A stretch of 64,000 nucleotides of DNA. It comes from Flagellimonas spongiicola (GTDB taxonomy: Bacteria; Bacteroidota; Bacteroidia; Flavobacteriales; Flavobacteriaceae). Below, piece by piece: positions 1-11,188 of the stretch. The DNA is taken from assembly GCF_023502425.1 (NCBI RefSeq), contig NZ_JAMFMA010000002.1:1054001-1118000 (forward strand), given 5' to 3'. The first letter of the stretch is position 1. Every line of letters starts with the position of its first letter. Made by a program: the position numbers and the translations under genes. Below the pieces are notes generated by a model, which was not told the origin of the DNA, did no database searches, and saw only the letters and a program-made list of their open reading frames with translations.

Positions 1-2572
1 CAGATGGGAAAATGTTGAACATTCCTGAGTACCATGCAGCGTTTAAAACTTTGTCGAATTCATAAACTGTTGCGGAGGTATTGATTCCACTAGCATCCGG
101 GTTAGCAATAGGTTGTCCAGTAACTCCGTCGCCTTCCTCAAATACGCCTGATAAGGTTTCATTGGACTCAAAGTTCACCGGCAGACTAGTAGCAGGAGCC
201 GGTGGAGCTGCCGCTTCTTTATAGAAATAAATGTTATCGACATAAACAGTTCCCAATATATCAACTACATCCAAAATCAATTGACTAAAATCTGTAGTAG
301 TGGCTGTAAGACCTGCAGCTTGAAGGTCTGCAATCGAGACATCGATGGATGTCCACATTCCGGCAGATAAGGTGGTACGCTCATCGCCTCTAGTATCTGG
401 ATTGGCCCCGGCAAAACCGTCTCCACCGAAATCCACAACTCCGGTGATGAAATCAAATCCAGTCGCTGTCCATACATCAATATGGAAATTGGTCATCATG
501 GAAAGGTCCACACTAGTAGCTATGGTTTCAATTCCGGCAAAATCCAAGTCCGTATAGAGTTTAGTGTCATCTCCGGCAACTTGCACATCCATTACACCAC
601 CTCCGGCACTGAACCCAGCATAGAAGGTATCAACCGTGATATCGGTGTAAACATTACTGAACAAGGAGATAACATCTGCTGCATCTCTTGCTGGTGGAGC
701 AGGAGCTGCAACTGTTGGTGTGTCGCCACCAGCTGCACCGTCATTGTAAAAATAGATATTGTCCACATAAACGGTTCCTATTACATCAACCACATCCAAA
801 ATCAACTGACTGAAATCTGTTGGTGTTGCTGTAAGGCCTGCAGCTTGTAAGTCGGCAATTGAAACATCGATGGATGTCCACATGCCCGCTTGCAAGGTAG
901 TTCTTTCATCACCTCTTGTATCTGGATTTGCACCTGCAAAACCATCACCTCCGAAATCTACAACCCCGGCAATGAAATCGAATCCAGTGGCTGTCCAAAC
1001 ATCCATATGGAAATTGGTCATCATGGAAAGATCAACACTGGTAGCTATGGTCTCAATTCCGGCAAAGTCCAAGTCTGTGTAGAGCTTGGTATCATCACCA
1101 GCAACTTGCACATCGCTTACACCTCCACCAGCACTAAATCCGGCAAAAAAGGTATCTACGGTAATGTCTGTGTATTCATTACTGAACAAGGATATTACGT
1201 CTGCTGCATCCCTAGATGGAGGAGCTGGAGCCGCAACAGTTGGCATATCACCGCCTCCAGAACTTTCGTTGTAGAAATAAATATTATCCACATAAACAGT
1301 TCCTACTACATCAACTACATCTAAAATCAATTGGCTAAAGTCTGAAGGTGTAGCCGTAAGACCTGCAGCTTGTAAATCAGCAATGGAAACATCGATGGAT
1401 GTCCACATTCCGGCCTGAAGCGTGGTTCTTTCATCGCCTCTGGTATCAGGATTCGCTCCTGCAAAGCCATCACCTCCGAAATCCACAACTCCGGCAATGA
1501 AATCGAATCCTGTAGCTGTCCAAACATCCATATGGAAATTGGTCATCATGGAAAGATCAACACTGGTTGCTATGGTTTCAATACCTGCAAAATCCAAATC
1601 CGCGTACTGTTTTACATCATCACCTGCTACTTGCATATCAACAACACCAGCTCCAGCACTAAATCCAGCAAAGAAAGTGTCTACGGTGATATCTGTATAT
1701 TCATTACTGAACAAGGAAATAACATCTGCGGCATCTCTCGAAGGTGGGGCAGGTGCGGCTTCTGTTGGGGTATCTCCGCCACCAGAGGATCCCATTTGGG
1801 CAATATCATCCAAATAGAAGGTTCCAGCTGTGGTTCCTGGGCCGTCTACAAACATGGTAAAGCGTGAGAAACTATCGGTTGAAGTAAAATCAAATGACAA
1901 CATTTCCCACCCAGAACCGCCATGGCTTGCACTGATTTCAGTATCGGCGCCAGTTCCTTCTTCTAATTTAACCAGAACGTCAATAGCAGTTTCTGCCCAG
2001 AAGTTCATGGTTATGGTTTGGTCTGTACTAAGATCTATGGCAGTTCCCAAGTTGAAGAAGATGCCTTCAAATTCGGCTCCGCTATTGGTAATTGCACCAA
2101 CATTGGAAGCCACGTCATTACTGCCACCAGGTGCGGGATTGGCCACTACCTCGAATGCTGCTCCACTAAAAGTGGAAGCTTGATAGTCCACATTGTTGCC
2201 ATCAAAAGTAATTGGCAACATGGGTGCAGCAGGAGGTGTTGGGATTGCGATTACAATTTCATCTTCAAAAGTATCTGTTGCGCCTGCAATGTTTGAAGCG
2301 GTTAAACGTACTGTGTATGTGCCGTTGGTATAGGTTTTAACCGGCTCAATTTCGGTTGAAGTTGTTCCATCTCCAAAATCCCATTGATAATTTTGAGCGT
2401 TTTCTGAGATATTTAAAAATGATACGGTACCCGTGCCAGATACGATTCGTTGGGTAAACCCTGCGACTACTTCGGGTAAAATGTTCCCTTCATCATCTTC
2501 TTCACATCCAAATAAGGATATGGCCAAAATCAAGAGTGATAGGATCTTGGCTTTTGTCGTTATATATTTCAT
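1..2572 (-). CDS. PKD-domain surface lipoprotein with three tandem 175-aa domains, 3' end missing
   Basis: The reading frame is open from ATG at 2572 to the left edge (857 codons) without a stop, so the C-terminus is missing. It starts with a lipoprotein signal (Cys in LFGCEEDDE); the acidic residues after the Cys match the Bacteroidota surface-export signal. A PKD domain follows (about residues 33-95, with WDFGDGTT), then a beta-sandwich-like domain starting LPITFDGN. Three near-identical 175-residue domains come next, each ending VDNIYFY, and then a second LPVNFES domain. Family knowledge: PKD lipoproteins beside GH16 enzymes in flavobacterial laminarin loci act as surface glycan-binding proteins. 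It lies 27 bp after the GH16 gene on the same strand and is probably co-transcribed. No catalytic motif is visible. Glucan binding is inferred. Confidence 0.8.
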   Translation of the reverse strand, partial: MKYITTKAKILSLLILAISLFGCEEDDEGNILPEVVAGFTQRIVSGTGTVSFLNISENAQNYQWDFGDGTTSTEIEPVKTYTNGTYTVRLTASNIAGATDTFEDEIVIAIPTPPAAPMLPITFDGNNVDYQASTFSGAAFEVVANPAPGGSNDVASNVGAITNSGAEFEGIFFNLGTAIDLSTDQTITMNFWAETAIDVLVKLEEGTGADTEISASHGGSGWEMLSFDFTSTDSFSRFTMFVDGPGTTAGTFYLDDIAQMGSSGGGDTPTEAAPAPPSRDAADVISLFSNEYTDITVDTFFAGFSAGAGVVDMQVAGDDVKQYADLDFAGIETIATSVDLSMMTNFHMDVWTATGFDFIAGVVDFGGDGFAGANPDTRGDERTTLQAGMWTSIDVSIADLQAAGLTATPSDFSQLILDVVDVVGTVYVDNIYFYNESSGGGDMPTVAAPAPPSRDAADVISLFSNEYTDITVDTFFAGFSAGGGVSDVQVAGDDTKLYTDLDFAGIETIATSVDLSMMTNFHMDVWTATGFDFIAGVVDFGGDGFAGANPDTRGDERTTLQAGMWTSIDVSIADLQAAGLTATPTDFSQLILDVVDVIGTVYVDNIYFYNDGAAGGDTPTVAAPAPPARDAADVISLFSNVYTDITVDTFYAGFSAGGGVMDVQVAGDDTKLYTDLDFAGIETIATSVDLSMMTNFHIDVWTATGFDFITGVVDFGGDGFAGANPDTRGDERTTLSAGMWTSIDVSIADLQAAGLTATTTDFSQLILDVVDILGTVYVDNIYFYKEAAAPPAPATSLPVNFESNETLSGVFEEGDGVTGQPIANPDASGINTSATVYEFDKVLNAAWYSGMFNIFPS
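221..1795 (-). repeat. three in-frame 525-bp tandem repeats inside the PKD lipoprotein gene
   Basis: The word atcgatggat recurs at 341, 866 and 1391 and the Tyr codon of VDNIYFY at 221, 746 and 1271, giving an exact period of 525 bp (175 codons). Units are about 221-745, 746-1270 and 1271-1795. The translated units differ at only a few residues (for example DMPTVA/DTPTEA, FYAGF/FFAGF, LSAGMW/LQAGMW), while many third codon positions differ. The repeat is therefore a protein domain array and not a recent DNA duplication. The spacing keeps frame exactly. Confidence 0.95.
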
Positions 2573-2599
2573 TTTAGTATACATTAGTTGAGTTAGTTT

Positions 2600-3436
2600 T
2601 TATTGTTCGTAAACACGTACATAATCCACTATCATGGATTGTGGAAATTGAGTTTCAGCGTTAGGGCTTCCAACAAAGGTTCCGCCTACTGCCAAATTCA
2701 TGAGGATGTAAAAGGGCTTATTGAACACCCAAGTTCCTGTTACGTCTTCAGGAGTAATTTGATTGTACAGGACATCATCAACGTAATAGTTGATGTACTC
2801 AGGTCCCCATTCGATACCAAAAACATGGAATCCTGTGTCGAATCGGTCATTTTCCAATACATATTCTTTGGATATTGCTTGACCGCCTGAGTATCCTGGC
2901 CCGTGTACGCTACCTATCAAAACTGTTGGGTTTTGACCTCGATATTCCATGATATCGATTTCCCCGGCACCAGGCCAAGGATTTTCGTCTATATCGGCGC
3001 CTAACATCCAGAATGCTGGCCAAATCCCTTGTCCGTATGGTAGTCGAATTCTAGCTTCGAATCTACCGTACTGTTGTTCAAACAGATCTTTGGTCAATAA
3101 TCTAGCTGATGTGTATTGGGAGTTTTCAAATGCCTCTTGTTGAGCTGTTATCAACAAGACGCCGTTTTCCACTGTTACGTTTTCCGGACGACTAGTGTAG
3201 TATTGCAGTTCCTGATTGCCCCATCCGTTTACACCAGTTCCAATGTCATATCCCCATATGGATGCATCCGGTCTGCCTTCGACATCGAAATTGTCTTCCA
3301 TAACCAAATTGGTGAATGTGGCCACGGTTTGGGTCTCATCTGCTGAACAAGCCGTAAGCAGTATGGTGAATAGTGCAACGAGGCACCATAATCCCGATAT
3401 TCTTTGAATTTTACTGTATTTGTTATTTACATTCAT
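2600..3436 (-). CDS. GH16 beta-1,3-glucanase (laminarinase-like) lipoprotein
   Basis: A 278-residue protein with a lipoprotein signal (TILLTAC, Cys30, followed by SADE, suggesting surface export) and one GH16 domain. The catalytic motif GEIDIMEYRG is at residues 158-167, so E159 is the likely nucleophile and E164 the acid/base, with D161 between. The extra residue (ExDxxE) is the form seen in laminarinases and related beta-1,3(4)-glucanases. The conserved GIWPAFWMLG is at 137-146. The length is that of a bare catalytic domain, so binding must come from partners such as the adjacent PKD and repeat-domain lipoproteins. It sits in a run of four minus-strand genes with gaps of 12-34 bp. Exact specificity is inferred. 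Confidence 0.9.
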   Translation of the reverse strand: MNVNNKYSKIQRISGLWCLVALFTILLTACSADETQTVATFTNLVMEDNFDVEGRPDASIWGYDIGTGVNGWGNQELQYYTSRPENVTVENGVLLITAQQEAFENSQYTSARLLTKDLFEQQYGRFEARIRLPYGQGIWPAFWMLGADIDENPWPGAGEIDIMEYRGQNPTVLIGSVHGPGYSGGQAISKEYVLENDRFDTGFHVFGIEWGPEYINYYVDDVLYNQITPEDVTGTWVFNKPFYILMNLAVGGTFVGSPNAETQFPQSMIVDYVRVYEQ

Positions 3437-3469: not shown

Positions 3470-4879
3470 TTATTCCGTGTAGAAATAAATATTGTCGAAT
3501 ATGAAGTTGGGTCCACCAGTAAGAATCAATGCTCCTAAATTGTTTTTTTGTGATGCGATATCACCATCTAGTGCAATGTCAAAAGATGTCCATTGTCCAA
3601 CAGTCAAACCGGTCAAATCAAACCTACGATCTGCATCGTCTCCAGTAGGTAGCCCGGTATTAACATCGGTCTCAAGTGTTAGATTGGCTCCAATATCCCT
3701 GATTTGGATTCCCACTTCGGTACCGGCTTCCTGAACATACACATCCACATGCATGAATGTTAGCCCAGATGCGTCTACAGTGTTTTCAAAAATGATTCCT
3801 GTAAAATTGTTATTGGTGTACGCCAATACATCGCCTCCACTGGTTGAGGTAACCGAAACCTCTGTTGTGGAACCGCCAAAGCCAGGAGAGAAATTACTGG
3901 CCGTATCATTGGTATAAGCGTCGCTGAAAATGGACTTCACATTAGCAGCTGGCGTTGTAGGCTCAGGTGCGGTTTGTAAGGCGCCATTAGAGGTAACTTC
4001 AAGTGAACCATTAGCACGTACATTGCCAAGTATGGCTGAAATGGTCGAAGTACCTTCTCCAACAATTGAAATTTCACCGAGTTCACTTACCAGTGCCACA
4101 TTTTCATCCGTGGAAGAAAAATCGAAATAAGAAGGTGCTACGGTTACAGTTTGGTTTACACCATTGTCCAAATTAAAGGTTTGCGTAAGTCCCGTAATTG
4201 GAATGTTTGAACCTGTAAATGCTTGTTCCACCAATTCTGCTCCAGCAAAAATTGCCGGATTGGGTTGGGCAACTGTACCTAATTTTTCGAATTGTACTTC
4301 ATCCAACCAAAGTATATAGCCTCCTTCGTCTCCTTCAAAAGAGGCGCCTTCGGCTAACCAGAACATACCGGTTTCGTTGACCAATTTGGAGGCGTCAGGT
4401 ATAGGTATTACATATTTTTCCCATCTGGTACTCACTGCCAAATTGTTCAAGGTCACTTGAAATTTATTACTGGTTTCTGCAGAGATTCCAAATCCAATTG
4501 CATTGATGCTTGCGGCTTGAGAAGCTTTGGCATAAAATGTAAGTGCGTCAAAACTGGATAAATCCCTATTGACTGTTGTGTTGAACGCCGCACCGACAAA
4601 ACCATTTCCAAAGGCAGGGACATCAAAACGCATTGCAGCGCTGCCCATAAATACGTTGTCGTCGGTTGCTACGCTGAATGCTTCAGGGTCTGCTCCGGCG
4701 TCAACAAATGGAAAATAATCCAATCCTGCAGAAAAGGCATCAATAAAAACATCGCCATTGGCAGGGAAAGTCGCGAATTCCACATCATCCGAAAAATCTC
4801 TTTCGCAACCGGATAGAACAACAATTCCCAGGCATAGAAAAAGTACGGATCTTAAGCTGATATAATTCTTATTTTTCAT
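3470..4879 (-). CDS. PUL surface lipoprotein with Ig-like domain and a C-terminal repeat-type domain
   Basis: A 469-residue lipoprotein (GIVVLSGC, then ERDFSDD). An N-terminal beta-sandwich-like region of about 200 residues resembles carbohydrate-binding modules (FDALTFYAKAS, WEKYVIPI). A bacterial Ig-like stretch with VAPSYFDFSSTDENVA follows, and the last about 150 residues (VKSIFSDAYTND to FDNIYFYTE) match the 175-residue repeats of the neighbouring PKD protein. An in-frame ATG at 4903 would overlap the upstream stop; the ATG at 4879 is preferred because it directly precedes the signal peptide and shares the ACTAAAATG leader seen at 2572. A role as surface glycan-binding protein is likely but inferred; no SusD-like helical repeats are visible. 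Confidence 0.75.
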   Translation of the reverse strand: MKNKNYISLRSVLFLCLGIVVLSGCERDFSDDVEFATFPANGDVFIDAFSAGLDYFPFVDAGADPEAFSVATDDNVFMGSAAMRFDVPAFGNGFVGAAFNTTVNRDLSSFDALTFYAKASQAASINAIGFGISAETSNKFQVTLNNLAVSTRWEKYVIPIPDASKLVNETGMFWLAEGASFEGDEGGYILWLDEVQFEKLGTVAQPNPAIFAGAELVEQAFTGSNIPITGLTQTFNLDNGVNQTVTVAPSYFDFSSTDENVALVSELGEISIVGEGTSTISAILGNVRANGSLEVTSNGALQTAPEPTTPAANVKSIFSDAYTNDTASNFSPGFGGSTTEVSVTSTSGGDVLAYTNNNFTGIIFENTVDASGLTFMHVDVYVQEAGTEVGIQIRDIGANLTLETDVNTGLPTGDDADRRFDLTGLTVGQWTSFDIALDGDIASQKNNLGALILTGGPNFIFDNIYFYTE

Positions 4880-4892
4880 TTTAGTAGTCTTT

Positions 4893-7800
4893 TTATTTGC
4901 CAATATTGATATGTATGTATGTCATAATTTCCCACTCACTTCCATTATCAAATCCAACTGGACTGATTATGGGTTCATTGGCAAATTCGAGTGCTGCGTT
5001 TGGTGCATAGCGGGGTGAAAATTCATCCAATGATCTCCATATTCCACGTATACCAACTTGTGTGCTGGGCAGAATAAACCAATCTGGTTTACCTAAAGTT
5101 GTGGATACATCCAACATCAACTGTAGCGGAAACGTAAGGTTGAAATCCCTGTGGTAATCAAAAGGTCCCCAGTCGTTGACCTTGACATGTGTGCGGAATT
5201 TCATGTTTTTGTAAATGGCTCTGATATCACCACCAAATCTTTTAATAAGTCGATCGCTGTCACCATTTCCTTGACCATTTCCATAGTAGAAGTTTCCAAT
5301 TATCCCTAAATCCGGACTTACTTTGGATACCATCCTTGAATGGATTTCCCATAGATCCTCAGCAGGAGCTGAGTTTGGGAATGCAAAGAACTGCCTGTTG
5401 GCCAGGAAACCAATGTGTGCATCCTGAGTTGTTGGAAGATGACGGTAAACGAATCCAAGGTTCATGGCAAATTTTGCATCTTCTGCCCTGTCGTTGTCCC
5501 ATTCATACATCCAAGTTCCTGGCGTTGGGTCAAATGTCAAAAGGATTTCACCGCCAGTAGTCTCCCGATTTCCACGAACTGAAAAAGGATCGTCTATGAT
5601 GTTCCTTAATCTTCCTGGAGCAGTTACATCATTTGGCATTGCATCTACCAAAGGTTTTTGCCACAAGAAATTTGGTGCAATTTGAAAATTACCTGTTGCA
5701 TATGTGAAACCAGTTAAGAAGTTGACTTGGTTACCACTACCGGTGTCTTTCAATTTCCAACCTGTGAAGGTCAAGGTCTGGTCGGCGCCACCATTGGCTA
5801 CAAGACCCATGGAAGCCGCCTGTCCATACCAATTGAATTTACCTGCTTCATAGGTGAGTTTTATTTTTCCACCCCAATTATCACTGGCTTGGACTTGATC
5901 TTCGAAAACTACATAGTTACCGGTTGTGCCCCTTACATCTTGGAACGTGCTTCCATTCAGTGGATTACCGGCCCAAATTCCACCTAACATTACGCCAAAC
6001 TTTCCAAACTCTCGCTCAATTGCAATTGTTGCTCTTTCGGTTGGCCATGGCGGAATAACACCACTACGTACTTGATTTACGTCCAAGACACGTCGACCAT
6101 TTTCGTCAAATGTGATATCGGTTTCGAAATCCCGGTGGTAGATACCCGTTACATCAAACTTGCCAAGGTGCCTTTTATATTTGAAGAGCATGGTTGGGTT
6201 TGCACCCCACCATAATTGTGGTCCTACAGCGGCTTTTAATCCTTTCAGAACTCCTTTGCCGTCTACTTCAGCTCCTAGGATTTCACCATTGTAAATGTCT
6301 AGGTTTGGCCCATAATTTGCTTCTGGATAGAGTCCAAAGAAATCTCCTTCATAACCCCAGTGGTAGTGACCTGTTCTGTAAAAACCTCTTAGGTCAAAAT
6401 TTTTGGCTTTCCATTCAAATTCTGCATTGTAGACCCGAATTCGATTCACATCTTGAACCAAAACGTTCCCTTGGTCGGTATTCACTTCCAATGGACGCGA
6501 ATTGTTCTCATAAAAGATTTCGTTAATTGGGTTTTGGGCCACATTGCCCACCACGTTGACATTAACTTCTGCACGCATATTTGGAGCAGGATTCCCTTCT
6601 ACACCGATGAAATAGGATTGCATGTGATCAAAACCTAATTGATTGGGAAAAGTGTTGGGGTCATCTGGGTCAGCATTGTCTGGTGTAGTTAGTAAACTAC
6701 CACCAGTACTGAAGGTTGAGAATTTTGCTTGAAGGTTACTTATCCTTAACAAGTTACTTTGCTCTCCAGTCAAAGCTGCCTTATCGCCCCGAGCCTTCAA
6801 AACTGCATCCATCAATTGGATGTTGTCAAAATAGTTGGAAACAAATGCTTGATCAACACCATCATCATATGGGTTTAACTGATGCGCTTCTTTCAAAGCA
6901 TAGTATGCAGCTCTAGGATATAATTCGTAAAGACCTCTAGGGTTTGTTGCGCCTTTTGCGCAAATTCCAAACCACTCTTCATTCATATTGTTTTCTCCTT
7001 CAGCGGGTAAATCCCTGGCGTATCCGCCATTGGACCAAGAAGCATTGTTGTCATGGACATCGGCGTTCTTTCTGTCATCAAAACCATACTTCCACCAACC
7101 ATCACTGAATTGGAAGGTAAAACCACCTATGGAATTACCAACGTTTCCAACTCCTGCCGCATTTTCATAAATTTCTTTCCAATTTCCTACCATATAATAG
7201 GCTTGGGAATATTGGTCTTCCTTGTTTTCAACGGCGCTAAATGCATCGGCTCCAAACTCGGTGAACATAACCGGTTTGTTCAGCTTGTCTTTAACCACCT
7301 GGAACATATCACCAAAGGAAACTCCCCGATAGGTATTGGTTCCATAGATATCCACATCTTTGCATTCTTCTGCAACGATATCTATGAAGAGTACATCACC
7401 ATTACAAATGGCGACAGGATGGGAGGTATCCATGGATTTCATCATTTTAGCTGCTTCGTTCATAAGACGATACATTGGACGACCCCTGCTTTCTCCTATA
7501 AATTGAATCCGCCCTTCATCATCCGGGAAATCTTCCGTTTCCGCTCCGGCCCAGAAAAGGCCATAGTTGTTTTCGTTTCCTAATAAATAAAGAAGCAAAC
7601 CTGGAGTGTCTTTGTAACCTTCTACCAATTCCTTCATTTCCGTCATCAGAAAGTCCATTGTAGTTGGGTCGTCATAAATGGTAACTGGAGTCCATACACC
7701 ATTAAGGGTTAACCCGTAGCGACCAAAAGAATGGTTCAGCATAGTGTATATGCCGTAATTCTCATAGATGTATTGAATCCATTTAGCAGGCACTCCTGTA

Positions 7801-8078
7801 TATTGACGAATCACATTTACACCCATGTTTTTTAGTAGAGACATCTCATGATCGAGACCTGCACGGATAACATCATCGGATTTTGTCCAGAAATTGGCAT
7901 TCACTGTATTGGTGCCGATTGGGATATAGTCCCAATTCATACCATTGATCATGAAGTCTTCTCCATTGACCACCAATTTCATTCCTTCTCCATCTTGTAC
8001 AACTTGAACCTGACCGGTTTGGGCATAAATACCAGTTGAGAACAAAACAAGAAGCAATTGCAATACAATTTTTTTCAT
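4893..8078 (-). CDS. clan GH-A TIM-barrel glycosidase fused to an outer-membrane beta-barrel
   Basis: A 1061-residue protein with a signal peptide (cleavage after YAQ, about residue 20). Residues about 25-400 look like a clan GH-A TIM barrel (GH2_C/GH5-like). NGMNWDYIP opens the fold, LLGNEN at 165-170 gives acid/base E169, and MFTEFGAD at 271-278 gives nucleophile E274. After a linker (about 400-500), residues about 510-1061 alternate hydrophobic and polar residues in many short strands and end in YIHINIGK, typical of outer-membrane porin-like barrels. An enzyme anchored by its own barrel is unusual. It is the first gene after the regulator and heads the GH16 run. Substrate is inferred to be a beta-glucan from context; the GH family number cannot be assigned. 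Confidence 0.75.
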   Translation of the reverse strand: MKKIVLQLLLVLFSTGIYAQTGQVQVVQDGEGMKLVVNGEDFMINGMNWDYIPIGTNTVNANFWTKSDDVIRAGLDHEMSLLKNMGVNVIRQYTGVPAKWIQYIYENYGIYTMLNHSFGRYGLTLNGVWTPVTIYDDPTTMDFLMTEMKELVEGYKDTPGLLLYLLGNENNYGLFWAGAETEDFPDDEGRIQFIGESRGRPMYRLMNEAAKMMKSMDTSHPVAICNGDVLFIDIVAEECKDVDIYGTNTYRGVSFGDMFQVVKDKLNKPVMFTEFGADAFSAVENKEDQYSQAYYMVGNWKEIYENAAGVGNVGNSIGGFTFQFSDGWWKYGFDDRKNADVHDNNASWSNGGYARDLPAEGENNMNEEWFGICAKGATNPRGLYELYPRAAYYALKEAHQLNPYDDGVDQAFVSNYFDNIQLMDAVLKARGDKAALTGEQSNLLRISNLQAKFSTFSTGGSLLTTPDNADPDDPNTFPNQLGFDHMQSYFIGVEGNPAPNMRAEVNVNVVGNVAQNPINEIFYENNSRPLEVNTDQGNVLVQDVNRIRVYNAEFEWKAKNFDLRGFYRTGHYHWGYEGDFFGLYPEANYGPNLDIYNGEILGAEVDGKGVLKGLKAAVGPQLWWGANPTMLFKYKRHLGKFDVTGIYHRDFETDITFDENGRRVLDVNQVRSGVIPPWPTERATIAIEREFGKFGVMLGGIWAGNPLNGSTFQDVRGTTGNYVVFEDQVQASDNWGGKIKLTYEAGKFNWYGQAASMGLVANGGADQTLTFTGWKLKDTGSGNQVNFLTGFTYATGNFQIAPNFLWQKPLVDAMPNDVTAPGRLRNIIDDPFSVRGNRETTGGEILLTFDPTPGTWMYEWDNDRAEDAKFAMNLGFVYRHLPTTQDAHIGFLANRQFFAFPNSAPAEDLWEIHSRMVSKVSPDLGIIGNFYYGNGQGNGDSDRLIKRFGGDIRAIYKNMKFRTHVKVNDWGPFDYHRDFNLTFPLQLMLDVSTTLGKPDWFILPSTQVGIRGIWRSLDEFSPRYAPNAALEFANEPIISPVGFDNGSEWEIMTYIHINIGK

Positions 8079-8247
8079 AGTAATGTTAGTTTTAGTTTGA
8101 AGTTCACCGGAATGGAAAGTGCGTTGTGTTCAACCATGAACCTTTGGATTTCCAATATTCGGAACGGTTAAACTTATCTTAATAAAATGAGGTATCCTTA
8201 AAAAGAACCTCTACAAAAAGCATACATCTCAAAAAAGAGTCAATAAA

Positions 8248-8264
8248 ATTGTGAAAATCACAAT
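8248..8264. promoter_or_regulatory. 17-bp inverted repeat upstream of the PUL operon
   Basis: ATTGTGA-AAA-TCACAAT is a perfect 7-bp inverted repeat in the 296-bp gap between the regulator and the glycosidase-barrel gene. It could be an operator or a weak terminator for the regulator transcript (minus strand reads into AATTTTATT). No full TTG/TAnnTTTG promoter was found in this gap, and nothing else clear is seen there. Confidence 0.4.
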
Positions 8265-8374
8265 AACCCCTGAATTTCTTGGGCTTCCCCCGGGATTTTT
8301 ATCTTTTCAAAAAGAGGGTGTAATCAACGGTTGTATAGGTAATGTTGAGGTGGGAAAATCGCGTTGTATGGTTT

Positions 8375-11188
8375 TTAAAGCTTGAGGATATAATCTACGA
8401 GATTCTCGTCATGCTGTAAATCCATTTTTTTACGAAGTCTATACCGCTTTATCTCAACACTTCTTGGAGAAATGTTGAACATAGGTGCGATTTCCTTGGA
8501 TGAAAGATTGAGTCTTAAATAAGCACATAATCGAATATCGTTTGGGGATAGATTGGGATGCGCTTTCTTGAGCTTTTTGAGAAATTTACGGTCAGCATTA
8601 TTGAAAGCCTCCTTGAACATTTCCCAATCATCATTTTGATTTAGATTTTTATCAATAACGTTGACAATGTGCTTCACAGAGTTTTTGTCTTCAACATCAC
8701 TGACCAATTGGTTTTTAATTTTAGCCAACAGTTCATTTTTCTTGATAATGCTCATTGTTGAAGCTGCAAGTTCATTGCTTTTGCTCTTGAACTCATCTTT
8801 TAGCTGCTGATTTTTGAGTTTGACAATCTCCTTTTCACTATTCGCCTTCGCCAACTCGAGTTCACGTTTGTTGCGCTCAATGATTTTTTTCTGTTTTCGA
8901 TGATAATATCGTCGGTAGGAACTATGGATTGCTATTGAACCTAGGACACCGCTGATGATATACAACAATATGAACAAGTTGGATTTGTACCAAGGACGTG
9001 CTATCTTAAAGGAATAGGATGCTGTATTTTTGGATAGATTATCTCCTACCTTGGCTCGGACCTTAAAGGAATAATTCCCTGGCGGTAGATTTTCAAAGGT
9101 TACTTCATGGTCTAATGACCAATTGCTCCAATTGTCATAGATGTTTTCCAGTTTGTATTGATAATAAGGTCTCTGGAATTTTTTATAGCTCGCGGCATGA
9201 AAAGAAACAGTCAAATTGTTGTGGTCACTATCAAAATCCCCTGCATTGGTTAATTCCAGAAGTGAGTCATTGGTCAAGCCTGTATTTTTTCCTGCAAGCG
9301 CAATTTTATCAAGCTGCACTTCAAATTCTTGGTCTTGAATGGCATTCAAGTCAATTGTAAAATATCCAGAACGAGCTCCAATTAGGTACATTCCGTTGGA
9401 AATAGGTTCAACACTCTCATAACCAATTATACCATCTCGCATATCTTCCGATAAAGGAATCTGATTTATTTGAGGTGTGCCGTCCAGTCCATCTTTGGAT
9501 ACATATCCAATTGATGAATTGGTGAACGTCCATAACCGATTATTCGCAGCGTCATTTATCAGCTTTCCAGATACGTATTCATCATGTTCAAACAGTGGAC
9601 TTAGAAAACTGTCCTTGTTGAATTTATCATTATCCCAGTCATATTTTAGCACACCATTTTTATAACCATATATAAGCTCATCTTGATATTTTACTATTCC
9701 TGAATTGGAACTTTTAATGGTTTCGTCGATGTGGAGCTGAACCACGTTTTCAAACGCATCGTCCAATTGCAGTTTGTACAAACCCTTGTATTCATGATTG
9801 ACAAAAATGTTGTTATCAAATACTTCAAATTGCCTAGAGGAATTATCGAAGCCGTTTATTTTATTCCGTAGTTCCCAATTTCCATTTCTTTTTTCTAAAG
9901 TATACAGACCATCATAATTCCCTTGAATTAACCTATTCGGATGATTATCAAGTGTTCCAATTTTCCAGGTACCTTGGGTGCCATCAATTTTTGAAATAGA
10001 GGTGTTTTGGATTATAAAGGTGCCGTTGTGATGTCCGCAGAAGAGTGTGCCATGAATATTTTCCAGCGACCATACTTGACCTTCGGTGCCCTCCATAAAA
10101 GTAAAGTCGGAATCATTTGTAAGCGTTTTGTAGAATAGTCCTTGATTAGTGCCTAAGTACAAAATGTCGTTTGTAACCGCAGCGGCATAAACACTCCCCA
10201 CCAATCCTTCACGATCTAGGTATACATGATATGGAGAAGTGGCATTCACACTGGTCACGCCAACATCCAATCCTAACCATATATTATTTTCTAAATCTTC
10301 AAAAAGTGATAGAACGGTATTGTTTTGAAGGCCTTTCAATTGATCAATGTGTTGAATAATCGTACCTTCAGAATCCATCAAAATAAGCCCATGCGAAATT
10401 GTGCCTAAGGCCAAATTTCCGTTGCTCAACCGTGCCCCACTATAGAGACTTATTTGATCTAGAAGTGGACTGGCTTCTGTTTCCCATTTCGATAAGCTGT
10501 TATCTTCAAATTTGTAGAAGCCCTTATTCCTTGTTAGAAACACCAAAGAACCATTTTCTTGAAATAGGTTGATGATTTCCTCACTTTGAAGGATTTCGTC
10601 TGCCAAGACAAGAAGCTCTTGTCCATTTTCAATCTTAAATACGCCCTCATTAAGTTTTTGAAAGTAAACTGTATTTTCAATAGGAAATGCTTTTGGAATA
10701 AAAGCTTCGGATTTGATGATGCTTGCGGTATTGGTTTCCAGGTTATAGGTGTAAATACGATAATGGGATTGGAAGACCATTCGTTCACCAAAATCAAGTA
10801 TTTGCCAAAATTCTTCATCCTCCAAAATGGTGTCTGAAAGATTTGAGGATAAGCTGGTGTATTCAAGTACGTTGAACTTATTACGTTCCCAATAACCAAA
10901 TTCCATGTAGCATCCGGTGTAGATGCGGTCACCAACAATTTTCAGGGAACGGATTATCGATTCGTTTGGCGATGGGTAAAGGGTCCATTTAGCTCCATTG
11001 TATTCCAAGAGTCCACGATTGTTTGCTACATAGATAACTTTGTCATCACCTTGGTCCAAATCCCAATTTTGACTTTCCGCATGATAATCAGACGGGCTAA
11101 AATTCTGAATAGGAGGGATTTCTTGTGATATGCCCTGAGCGAAGCAAACCAATGAGATAACCAGAAAAGCAAATTTGGGCCTTATCAC
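8375..11188 (-). CDS. membrane-spanning propeller sensor with LuxR-type HTH (PUL regulator)
   Basis: A 937-residue protein with a signal peptide (ISLVCFAQGIS), a long periplasmic region of two-component-regulator-like beta-propeller repeats (WLGLDVGV, LYLGTNQGLFY), a triple-Tyr (Y_Y_Y) domain (about 660-745, ending NYSFKVRAKVGDN), one transmembrane helix (LFILLYIISGVLGSIAI), a cytoplasmic coiled coil rich in Lys and Glu, and a C-terminal LuxR-type HTH (SSKEIAPMFNISPRSVEIKR). It is built like the hybrid two-component sensors of Bacteroides PULs but has no kinase or receiver domain, so signal passes directly to the DNA-binding end. It lies upstream of and in line with the glucanase genes. Sensing of a glucan oligosaccharide is inferred. 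Confidence 0.88.
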   Translation of the reverse strand: MIRPKFAFLVISLVCFAQGISQEIPPIQNFSPSDYHAESQNWDLDQGDDKVIYVANNRGLLEYNGAKWTLYPSPNESIIRSLKIVGDRIYTGCYMEFGYWERNKFNVLEYTSLSSNLSDTILEDEEFWQILDFGERMVFQSHYRIYTYNLETNTASIIKSEAFIPKAFPIENTVYFQKLNEGVFKIENGQELLVLADEILQSEEIINLFQENGSLVFLTRNKGFYKFEDNSLSKWETEASPLLDQISLYSGARLSNGNLALGTISHGLILMDSEGTIIQHIDQLKGLQNNTVLSLFEDLENNIWLGLDVGVTSVNATSPYHVYLDREGLVGSVYAAAVTNDILYLGTNQGLFYKTLTNDSDFTFMEGTEGQVWSLENIHGTLFCGHHNGTFIIQNTSISKIDGTQGTWKIGTLDNHPNRLIQGNYDGLYTLEKRNGNWELRNKINGFDNSSRQFEVFDNNIFVNHEYKGLYKLQLDDAFENVVQLHIDETIKSSNSGIVKYQDELIYGYKNGVLKYDWDNDKFNKDSFLSPLFEHDEYVSGKLINDAANNRLWTFTNSSIGYVSKDGLDGTPQINQIPLSEDMRDGIIGYESVEPISNGMYLIGARSGYFTIDLNAIQDQEFEVQLDKIALAGKNTGLTNDSLLELTNAGDFDSDHNNLTVSFHAASYKKFQRPYYQYKLENIYDNWSNWSLDHEVTFENLPPGNYSFKVRAKVGDNLSKNTASYSFKIARPWYKSNLFILLYIISGVLGSIAIHSSYRRYYHRKQKKIIERNKRELELAKANSEKEIVKLKNQQLKDEFKSKSNELAASTMSIIKKNELLAKIKNQLVSDVEDKNSVKHIVNVIDKNLNQNDDWEMFKEAFNNADRKFLKKLKKAHPNLSPNDIRLCAYLRLNLSSKEIAPMFNISPRSVEIKRYRLRKKMDLQHDENLVDYILKL

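Follow-up and report, generated by a model that had tools for sequence, protein, structure and literature searches.

A glycosidase joined to a predicted outer-membrane β-barrel in a laminarin-type locus of Flagellimonas spongiicola, and its possible role in glucan intake

By what route might a bacterium take in β-1,3-glucan when its laminarin-type locus holds no SusC/SusD pair? The question is raised by a 64,000-nucleotide stretch of DNA from Flagellimonas spongiicola (RefSeq assembly GCF_023502425.1, contig NZ_JAMFMA010000002.1, positions 1,054,001 to 1,118,000; here called the window), in which a single minus-strand gene at 4893..8078 joins a glycosidase to a membrane barrel. The original prediction, made from the sequence alone, took the product for a surface glycosidase anchored by its own barrel and possibly coupled to its pore. 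On the data presented below there is, in our judgement, a little better than an even chance that the whole protein serves as an intake gate of the outer membrane, whose own glucanase domain cuts glucan on entry; this judgement applies to the joint mechanism, whose component probabilities are not independent.

The open reading frame (ORF) encodes 1061 aa, from an ATG start to the C-terminus YIHINIGK. Its first 20 residues (8019..8078, minus strand; MKKIVLQLLLVLFSTGIYAQ) resemble by eye a signal peptide, which ends in GIYAQ and has no lipobox cysteine. A chance ORF or an assembly join was considered and rejected, since the fetched loci hold 129 ORFs that match the protein across more than 980 residues (a count that takes in the ORF of the window itself and covers some genomes twice) and the synteny is conserved. 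Of 584 relatives, the best 80 were kept. In 78 of 397 genomes of the same family (own genome included), one ORF spans the query, beginning at residue 17 or before and reaching residue 1060 or 1061. The 129 full-length ORFs, cut at 82% identity, gave an alignment of 64 rows, from which a full-length AlphaFold2 model was built (pLDDT 77.0, pTM 0.55). Both folds are present in the models, and the architecture that had been predicted, an enzyme and a membrane barrel in one chain, is solid to the point of practical certainty.

The enzyme half occupies residues 21-434 (6777..8018, minus strand). It is a TIM-barrel domain with tail helices, recognized by Pfam, the model and structural neighbours, which begins shortly after the signal peptide and corresponds to the stand-alone relatives described below. 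The modelled strands lie at 44-48, 89-93, 111-116, 161-166, 222-227, 244-248, 270-274 and 316-322. E169 (7572..7574), the predicted acid/base, stands three residues past β-4 in 'GNEN', and E274 (7257..7259), the predicted nucleophile, closes β-7 in 'TEFG'. N168, E169 and E274 are invariant in the 64 rows, and both glutamates are also present in all 16 of the barrel-less, cut-off or distant relatives that were aligned. E169 pairs with the glutamate of 'LGNE' in a GH2-type β-galactosidase and E274 with that of 'TEFG' in GH158(Pro). It is apparent that the (β/α)8 barrel, with Asn-Glu after β-4 and Glu at β-7, is that of clan GH-A, and the catalytic pair is the one originally proposed. The same arrangement is described for BuGH158, with E137 and E220 after β-4 and β-7 (PMC7157763).

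The family to which the domain belongs is less obvious. The sole Pfam match of the fusion is PF02836, the GH2 TIM barrel, which spans residues 34-282 (E 3.5e-6) and scores 26.8 bits, the cut-off being 21. The closest structures are ties: LaGH157 (Z 27.3 over 309 residues) and human β-glucuronidase (Z 27.0), followed by a GH2 galacturonidase and GH158 (both Z 26.6). When the 64-row profile was compared with the PDB, BuGH158 was the best match (E 3.3e-4), ahead of a β-galactosidase (0.0019) and GH158(Pro) (0.0039). A plain GH2 enzyme, which is the published label, was considered and given lower weight: the resemblance to GH2 β-glycosidases consists of the weak PF02836 match and Z scores of up to 27.0, tied with GH157/GH158, whereas neither Pfam nor the model reveals the N-terminal sugar-binding sandwich and immunoglobulin-like domains of GH2 in the fusion, which carries a membrane barrel. 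With GH157 (LaGH157) and GH158 (BuGH158, GH158(Pro)) the domain shares the GH-A TIM barrel, the sites of the Glu pair, a laminarin context and Z scores of 25-27, although the identity in the structural alignments is 17-19%; we know of no outer-membrane barrel in those endo-β-1,3-glucanases. The titles of the GH157 and GH158 structures name laminari-oligosaccharides, and a relationship to these families would suit the locus better than one to a galactosidase or a glucuronidase. The substrate is likely to be β-1,3-glucan, and the original suggestion of a glucan context agrees with the laminarin-type genes that surround the fusion.

The second half, residues 444-1058 (4905..6749, minus strand), is modelled as a 24-strand outer-membrane barrel. 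It had been predicted as a barrel of about 550 residues ending in YIHINIGK; the ending is correct, but the length is about 615 residues. Hits to the TIM domain took up the entire VIA-align list of the full-length model, so a second model was made of the barrel by itself (pLDDT 77.3, pTM 0.75) and used for a separate search. The same 24 strands were obtained in both models, with small shifts at their ends. The strand number is even, long loops alternate with short turns on the opposite side, and the final strand is C-terminal. The alternation of hydrophobicity between inward and outward residues is clear in most strands but not in all, as detailed below. No Pfam family was found for this part of the window protein, and the 64 relatives give only scattered weak names (best E 0.017). 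The PDB neighbours of the barrel alone include AlgE, Occ porins, ushers, FrpB, maltoporin and chitoporin (top 50 rows, Z 11.8-14.3), to which Foldseek adds BtuB, MOMP, ZnuD and LptD. Rows with more than 350 aligned residues are ushers and TonB-dependent barrels; for PapC, 373 residues align in sequence order, the stretch 37-660 of the barrel-alone model pairing with 139-633 of the PapC chain. The PapC and FimD ushers have 24 strands. The likeness to these ushers, which align over the whole length, and to AlgE, Occ porins, maltoporin and chitoporin lies in the barrel fold; the identity is 5-15% in the listed rows, and the other domains and the roles differ. Two known classes were rejected: a SusC-type protein, since the fusion is not among the 48 matches to profile TIGR04056 and has no plug-domain match, and a client of the type IX secretion system, since no sorting domain of that system was found with Pfam or NCBIfam and the C-terminus is the last barrel strand.

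On which side of the membrane would the enzyme lie? The loops after odd-numbered strands average 23.9 residues and the turns after even-numbered strands 4.8 (Mann-Whitney p 8.5e-5), and in outer-membrane barrels the short turns and both termini are periplasmic. This loop parity, together with the in-order alignment of the whole barrel to the PapC/FimD ushers, indicates that the enzyme is probably periplasmic. That placement runs against the self-anchored surface glycosidase originally proposed. Export of the enzyme through its own C-terminal barrel, which would then serve as exporter and anchor while the tethered enzyme works outside, is unlikely in our view. An N-terminal enzyme before a C-terminal barrel is the order of a type Va autotransporter, and in the model a helix (422-437) directly precedes strand 1. 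However, 24 strands are modelled as against the 12 of autotransporters, and neither the fusion nor its 64 aligned relatives match an autotransporter family in Pfam. The helix is retained wholly or partly in the stand-alone enzymes of loci L141, L143, L185, L186 and L146 and shortened in others; as several enzymes with no barrel to thread keep it, it is unlikely to be a special linker for passage through a pore. The GH16 protein and two more lipoprotein-like products of the locus could, moreover, already serve the surface.

If the enzyme is periplasmic, the barrel might pass sugar to it, pass sugar out, or simply hold it. The outer loops bear on this point. Those at 570-598, 622-628, 970-982 and 758-783 have conservation values of 0.95, 0.99, 0.97 and 0.88, respectively, compared with means of 0.76 for the enzyme domain and 0.74 for the strands, and with 0.46-0.77 for the other eight loops. 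Their invariant residues include many Trp, Tyr, Asp, Asn and Arg, as in sugar-binding sites, and the loop at 570-598 (6285..6371, minus strand), rich in Trp, Tyr, Asp and Glu, is a candidate for sugar binding or gating. Such extreme conservation suggests, but does not prove, a selective channel in place of a mere anchor, and we consider it fairly probable that sugar passes through the barrel. The pore coupling of the original prediction is a serious possibility, but as part of an intake gate and not of a surface enzyme. Alternatively, the protein might release or trim β-glucan made by the cell, in the manner of the secretion barrels AlgE, BcsC and PgaA with their periplasmic domains or partners. 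AlgE is indeed among the top neighbours of the barrel (Z 14.3, 257 residues), but Occ porins score alike and maltoporin and chitoporin only 1.5-2 lower, and the identified genes of the locus encode glycosidases, a phosphorylase, transporters and binding-type proteins, with no glycan synthase among them; export or remodelling is very improbable.

The locus is of laminarin type. Its minus-strand order is regulator, fusion, lipoprotein, GH16, PKD protein, MFS, phosphorylase, GH17, GH30, MFS and GH17, the genes from the first MFS to the last GH17 lying beyond the window in the extended own locus, L140. The regulator (8375..11188, minus strand, upstream of the fusion) has a Y_Y_Y domain over the cut-off and a LuxR-type GerE match below it (22.0 bits; cut-off 23.5). 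The putative partner lipoprotein (3470..4879, minus strand; LP477, or 469 aa from the ATG at 4879) starts 13 bases past the fusion stop, and a relative of it is the next recognized locus gene in all 80 named-genome loci. It is followed, on the same strand, by the GH16 protein (2600..3436; an endo-β-glucanase family by Pfam/NCBIfam, with a lipobox-like start by eye) and by the PKD-domain protein (2..2584), which also has a lipobox-like start and runs off the window. The residues after the lipobox, CERDFSDD in the lipoprotein and CEEDDEGN in the PKD protein, resemble the acidic surface-export signal of Bacteroidota. The first MFS protein in L140 is of the sugar transporter type, and the 1159-aa phosphorylase matches the solved β-1,3-oligosaccharide phosphorylase 6hq6 over residues 8-1159 (1621 bits), presumably of family GH149, which agrees with the published Muricauda locus. 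That laminarin polysaccharide utilization locus (PUL), reported in 2026, comprises LuxR, GH2, GH16, GH149, GH17, GH30 and MFS genes, and its MlGH17A was characterized as an endo-laminarinase (PMC13188888). The contig of strain 176CP4-71 named there (SGIU01000001.1) is that of our locus L039, in which the fusion is found at 86%.

It was of interest to determine whether a SusC/SusD system serves the same locus. A profile search of the genome found neither SusC nor SusD in it: the 13 SusC matches over the cut-off (48 in total) all lie elsewhere, the nearest SusC-type match of any strength (C6:981524-982153, under the cut-off) is about 61 kb from the last locus gene, and the nearest SusD match on the same contig is more than 600 kb distant. 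In 20 distant genomes, GH16 was recognized in 18 loci and the phosphorylase in 17, and the order fusion-lipoprotein-GH16-phosphorylase was complete in 13, one of which has an intervening PKD gene. Only one of the 20 has a SusC match within 20 kb at E 1e-30, with up to 24 candidates scored per genome. Genome G311 gave no SusC match at this threshold among the 24 scored of its 27 candidates.

A mechanism consistent with these results can be put forward. Outside the cell, the GH16 lipoprotein would cut laminarin or another β-1,3-glucan, held at the surface by the partner lipoprotein and the PKD protein. Oligosaccharides would then enter through the 24-strand barrel, its conserved aromatic loops acting as a selectivity filter, and would be shortened on arrival by the GH157/158-like TIM barrel held at the periplasmic end of the pore. 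The MFS transporters might carry the products inward, where the β-1,3-oligosaccharide phosphorylase, GH17 and GH30 would degrade them.

Several observations weigh against such an intake gate. The full-length model (pTM 0.55) is of moderate confidence and does not define how the two halves are positioned to each other; strands 444-460 and 547-557 show almost no in/out alternation, and that of 924-936 is weak. The protein revealed no plug, no TonB box and no other gate, and an open 24-strand pore would be harmful. With the single sequence as query, the best PDB match is the β-galactosidase 1yq2 (E 2.4e-4), which is no β-1,3-glucanase, GH158(Pro) being second (E 0.11, or 0.0064 with the domain alone). 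SusC genes occur within the fetched flank of up to 10 kb in 20 of the 80 named-genome loci, 19 on the same strand and 19 with SusD (19 of the 59 loci that have both flanks of about 10 kb); given these loci and the SusC matches elsewhere in the genome, glucan might also enter by routes other than the barrel. In the 20 distant loci the lipoprotein was recognized in 16, not in all. Enzymes without a barrel occur in eleven loci (L141-L144, L146, L147, L185-L187, L190 and L191). Finally, on a quick tree of 75 rows (the pieces L184, L188 and L189, the split L192, the fused L195 and distant outgroup rows were left out), the label fused or alone is only somewhat clustered, with 8 changes compared with a shuffled mean of 10.4; at least 6 of these are forced by well-supported branches, three rows are long-branched, and the count does not separate gains from losses.

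Two of these points, the SusC genes beside the fusion and the repeated coupling or uncoupling of enzyme and barrel, would fit a barrel that passed no sugar and only fixed a periplasmic enzyme at the outer membrane beside other transporters. We regard such an anchor as unlikely. Lipid anchors are far cheaper, and lipobox-like starts were seen by eye in the barrel-less enzymes of L143, L144 and L185; some barrel loops exceed the mean of the enzyme domain in conservation; 19 of the 20 distant genomes have no SusC match within 20 kb; and G311 gave none at E 1e-30 among the 24 candidates scored of 27. Taken together, the counts in named and distant genomes argue that the core of the locus is independent of SusC/SusD, though both coexist in places.

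The barrel-less loci show what accompanies the enzyme when the barrel is lacking. Four of the eleven have SusC/SusD-type genes: the stand-alone enzyme of L141 and L143 shares its strand with SusC and SusD, that of L191 (possibly a decayed copy) is adjoined by both on the opposite strand, and in L190 (7882-9957) the enzyme domain is fused to GH16 in place of the barrel and has a SusD-type neighbour. In L186, a weak barrel remnant (E 2e-4) follows the enzyme stop; a profile match of E 7e-20 there also covers the enzyme tail. In none of the eleven, three of which (L143, L186 and L187) are short, was the partner lipoprotein recognized. The barrel and the lipoprotein thus tend to be present or absent jointly, as partners would be, whereas the enzyme persists. 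L146 and L147 hold two further GH2-type TIM proteins (Pfam).

The search for other such fusions showed that the architecture recurs across Bacteroidota. With the full query, and counting weak matches to the TIM domain only, 57 of 395 phylum genomes and 127 of 397 family genomes are positive. The barrel profile matches 35 of the 395, whole matches being in ORFs of more than 1000 aa, i.e. fused, with partial matches in G291, G175 and a second piece in G260 as exceptions; no whole barrel without enzyme was found with it in the 395 genomes. In the own genome the barrel occurs once. The gene is divided between two adjacent frames or two contigs in G508, G750, G550 and G590 of the family search, and in one genome (L192, 6683-9840) the fusion is split into two overlapping frames of 300 and 765 aa. 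In PLSDB the fusion is found in two records, one a Persicobacter megaplasmid (61.5%) and the other from Bacteroides finegoldii (locus L196, NZ_OY725931.1, 9937-22903). The B. finegoldii protein, WP_022275059.1, is 55.5% identical over 98% and annotated as a GH2 TIM barrel; the next genes encode a relative of the lipoprotein (34.6%), GH16 (49.4%), a fimbrillin, a hypothetical protein and BglX, and no SusC/SusD is annotated in the 33-kb stretch. NZ_OY725931.1 is labelled a plasmid, yet it holds genes for valine--tRNA ligase and ribosomal protein S1 and may be chromosomal.

How does this architecture compare with known systems? In Formosa laminarin loci an MFS-GH17 fusion is reported, whose authors were aware of no transporter-CAZyme fusion in other bacteria (PMC6246565). 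It too joins a carbohydrate enzyme to a transporter within a flavobacterial laminarin locus, but it is helical, lies in the inner membrane and uses another enzyme family, whereas the present protein has an outer-membrane β-barrel. If our reading is true, the present protein would be the outer-membrane counterpart of the MFS-GH17 fusion. SusC/SusD transporters and outer-membrane utilisomes likewise combine a barrel with a neighbouring lipoprotein in a glycan locus (PMC7618045); the fusion, in contrast, lies outside the SusC profile matches, shows no plug match and no noticeable TonB box, and has its enzyme, predicted to be periplasmic, covalently attached. Croceitalea and Croceivirga loci have a SusC/D pair plus GH16 or GH2, GH17 and CBM proteins (PMC11345257). 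In the Muricauda study the fusion gene is labelled just 'GH2 beta-glycosidase' or 'GH2 beta-1,6-glucosidase', and in its main text, as far as available, 'outer membrane' and 'porin' are absent and 'SusC' appears just in a reference title (PMC13188888); the available part of PMC11005184 holds nothing on the fusion gene. Among the matches listed from titles and abstract beginnings in the open-licence PMC literature, none describes a glycosidase-outer-membrane-barrel fusion. The elements are known, namely a GH-A enzyme, an outer-membrane barrel and the fusion of a transporter to an enzyme; the arrangement is one not found described in the open-licence literature searched.

If the intake-gate reading is true, a locus without SusC/SusD but with its own enzyme-fused barrel would be a second way in, easily missed because annotation calls the gene 'GH2'; it predicts that the barrel is needed for uptake and that the enzyme is periplasmic. 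More tentatively, and at somewhat less than an even chance, the fusions may form a phylum-wide class of glycan importers outside SusC/SusD: a large barrel lacking a plug would carry the first periplasmic glucanase fused to its inner end, and a dedicated surface lipoprotein would act as its lid, passage and cutting being one step, with a three-gene core (fusion, lipoprotein, GH16) in marine flavobacteria and gut Bacteroides. The fusion would have been undone several times, in some lineages with SusC/SusD in the same locus.

Some minor observations concern the neighbouring genes. No match to a Bacteroidota promoter consensus was found in 8079-8374, and the window as a whole has 3 compared with 4.5 expected, i.e. 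no excess. A regulator match suggested BT3439-BT3442; among the open-licence papers listed for these locus tags, none appears to concern this locus. The PKD protein (2-2584) has three very similar repeats of about 150-170 residues (by eye) with no Pfam match; they also resemble the end of the Bacteroides partner lipoprotein and are perhaps carbohydrate-binding modules. Shorter relatives (about 340-350 aa, about 26% identity, lipobox-like start) were seen in L145 (8148-9209), L193 (8923-9957) and L194 (8914-9939), in other phosphorylase/GH17/MFS loci of the phylum; two that were scanned match GH72 weakly, under the cut-off. In L140 (5479-8905), two genes that form a nitrite-reductase-like pair, one for cytochrome c552 (PF02335) and one for a NapC/NirT-type cytochrome, have a barrel of their own: a gene of the alginate-export family (PF13372) lies directly next to them.

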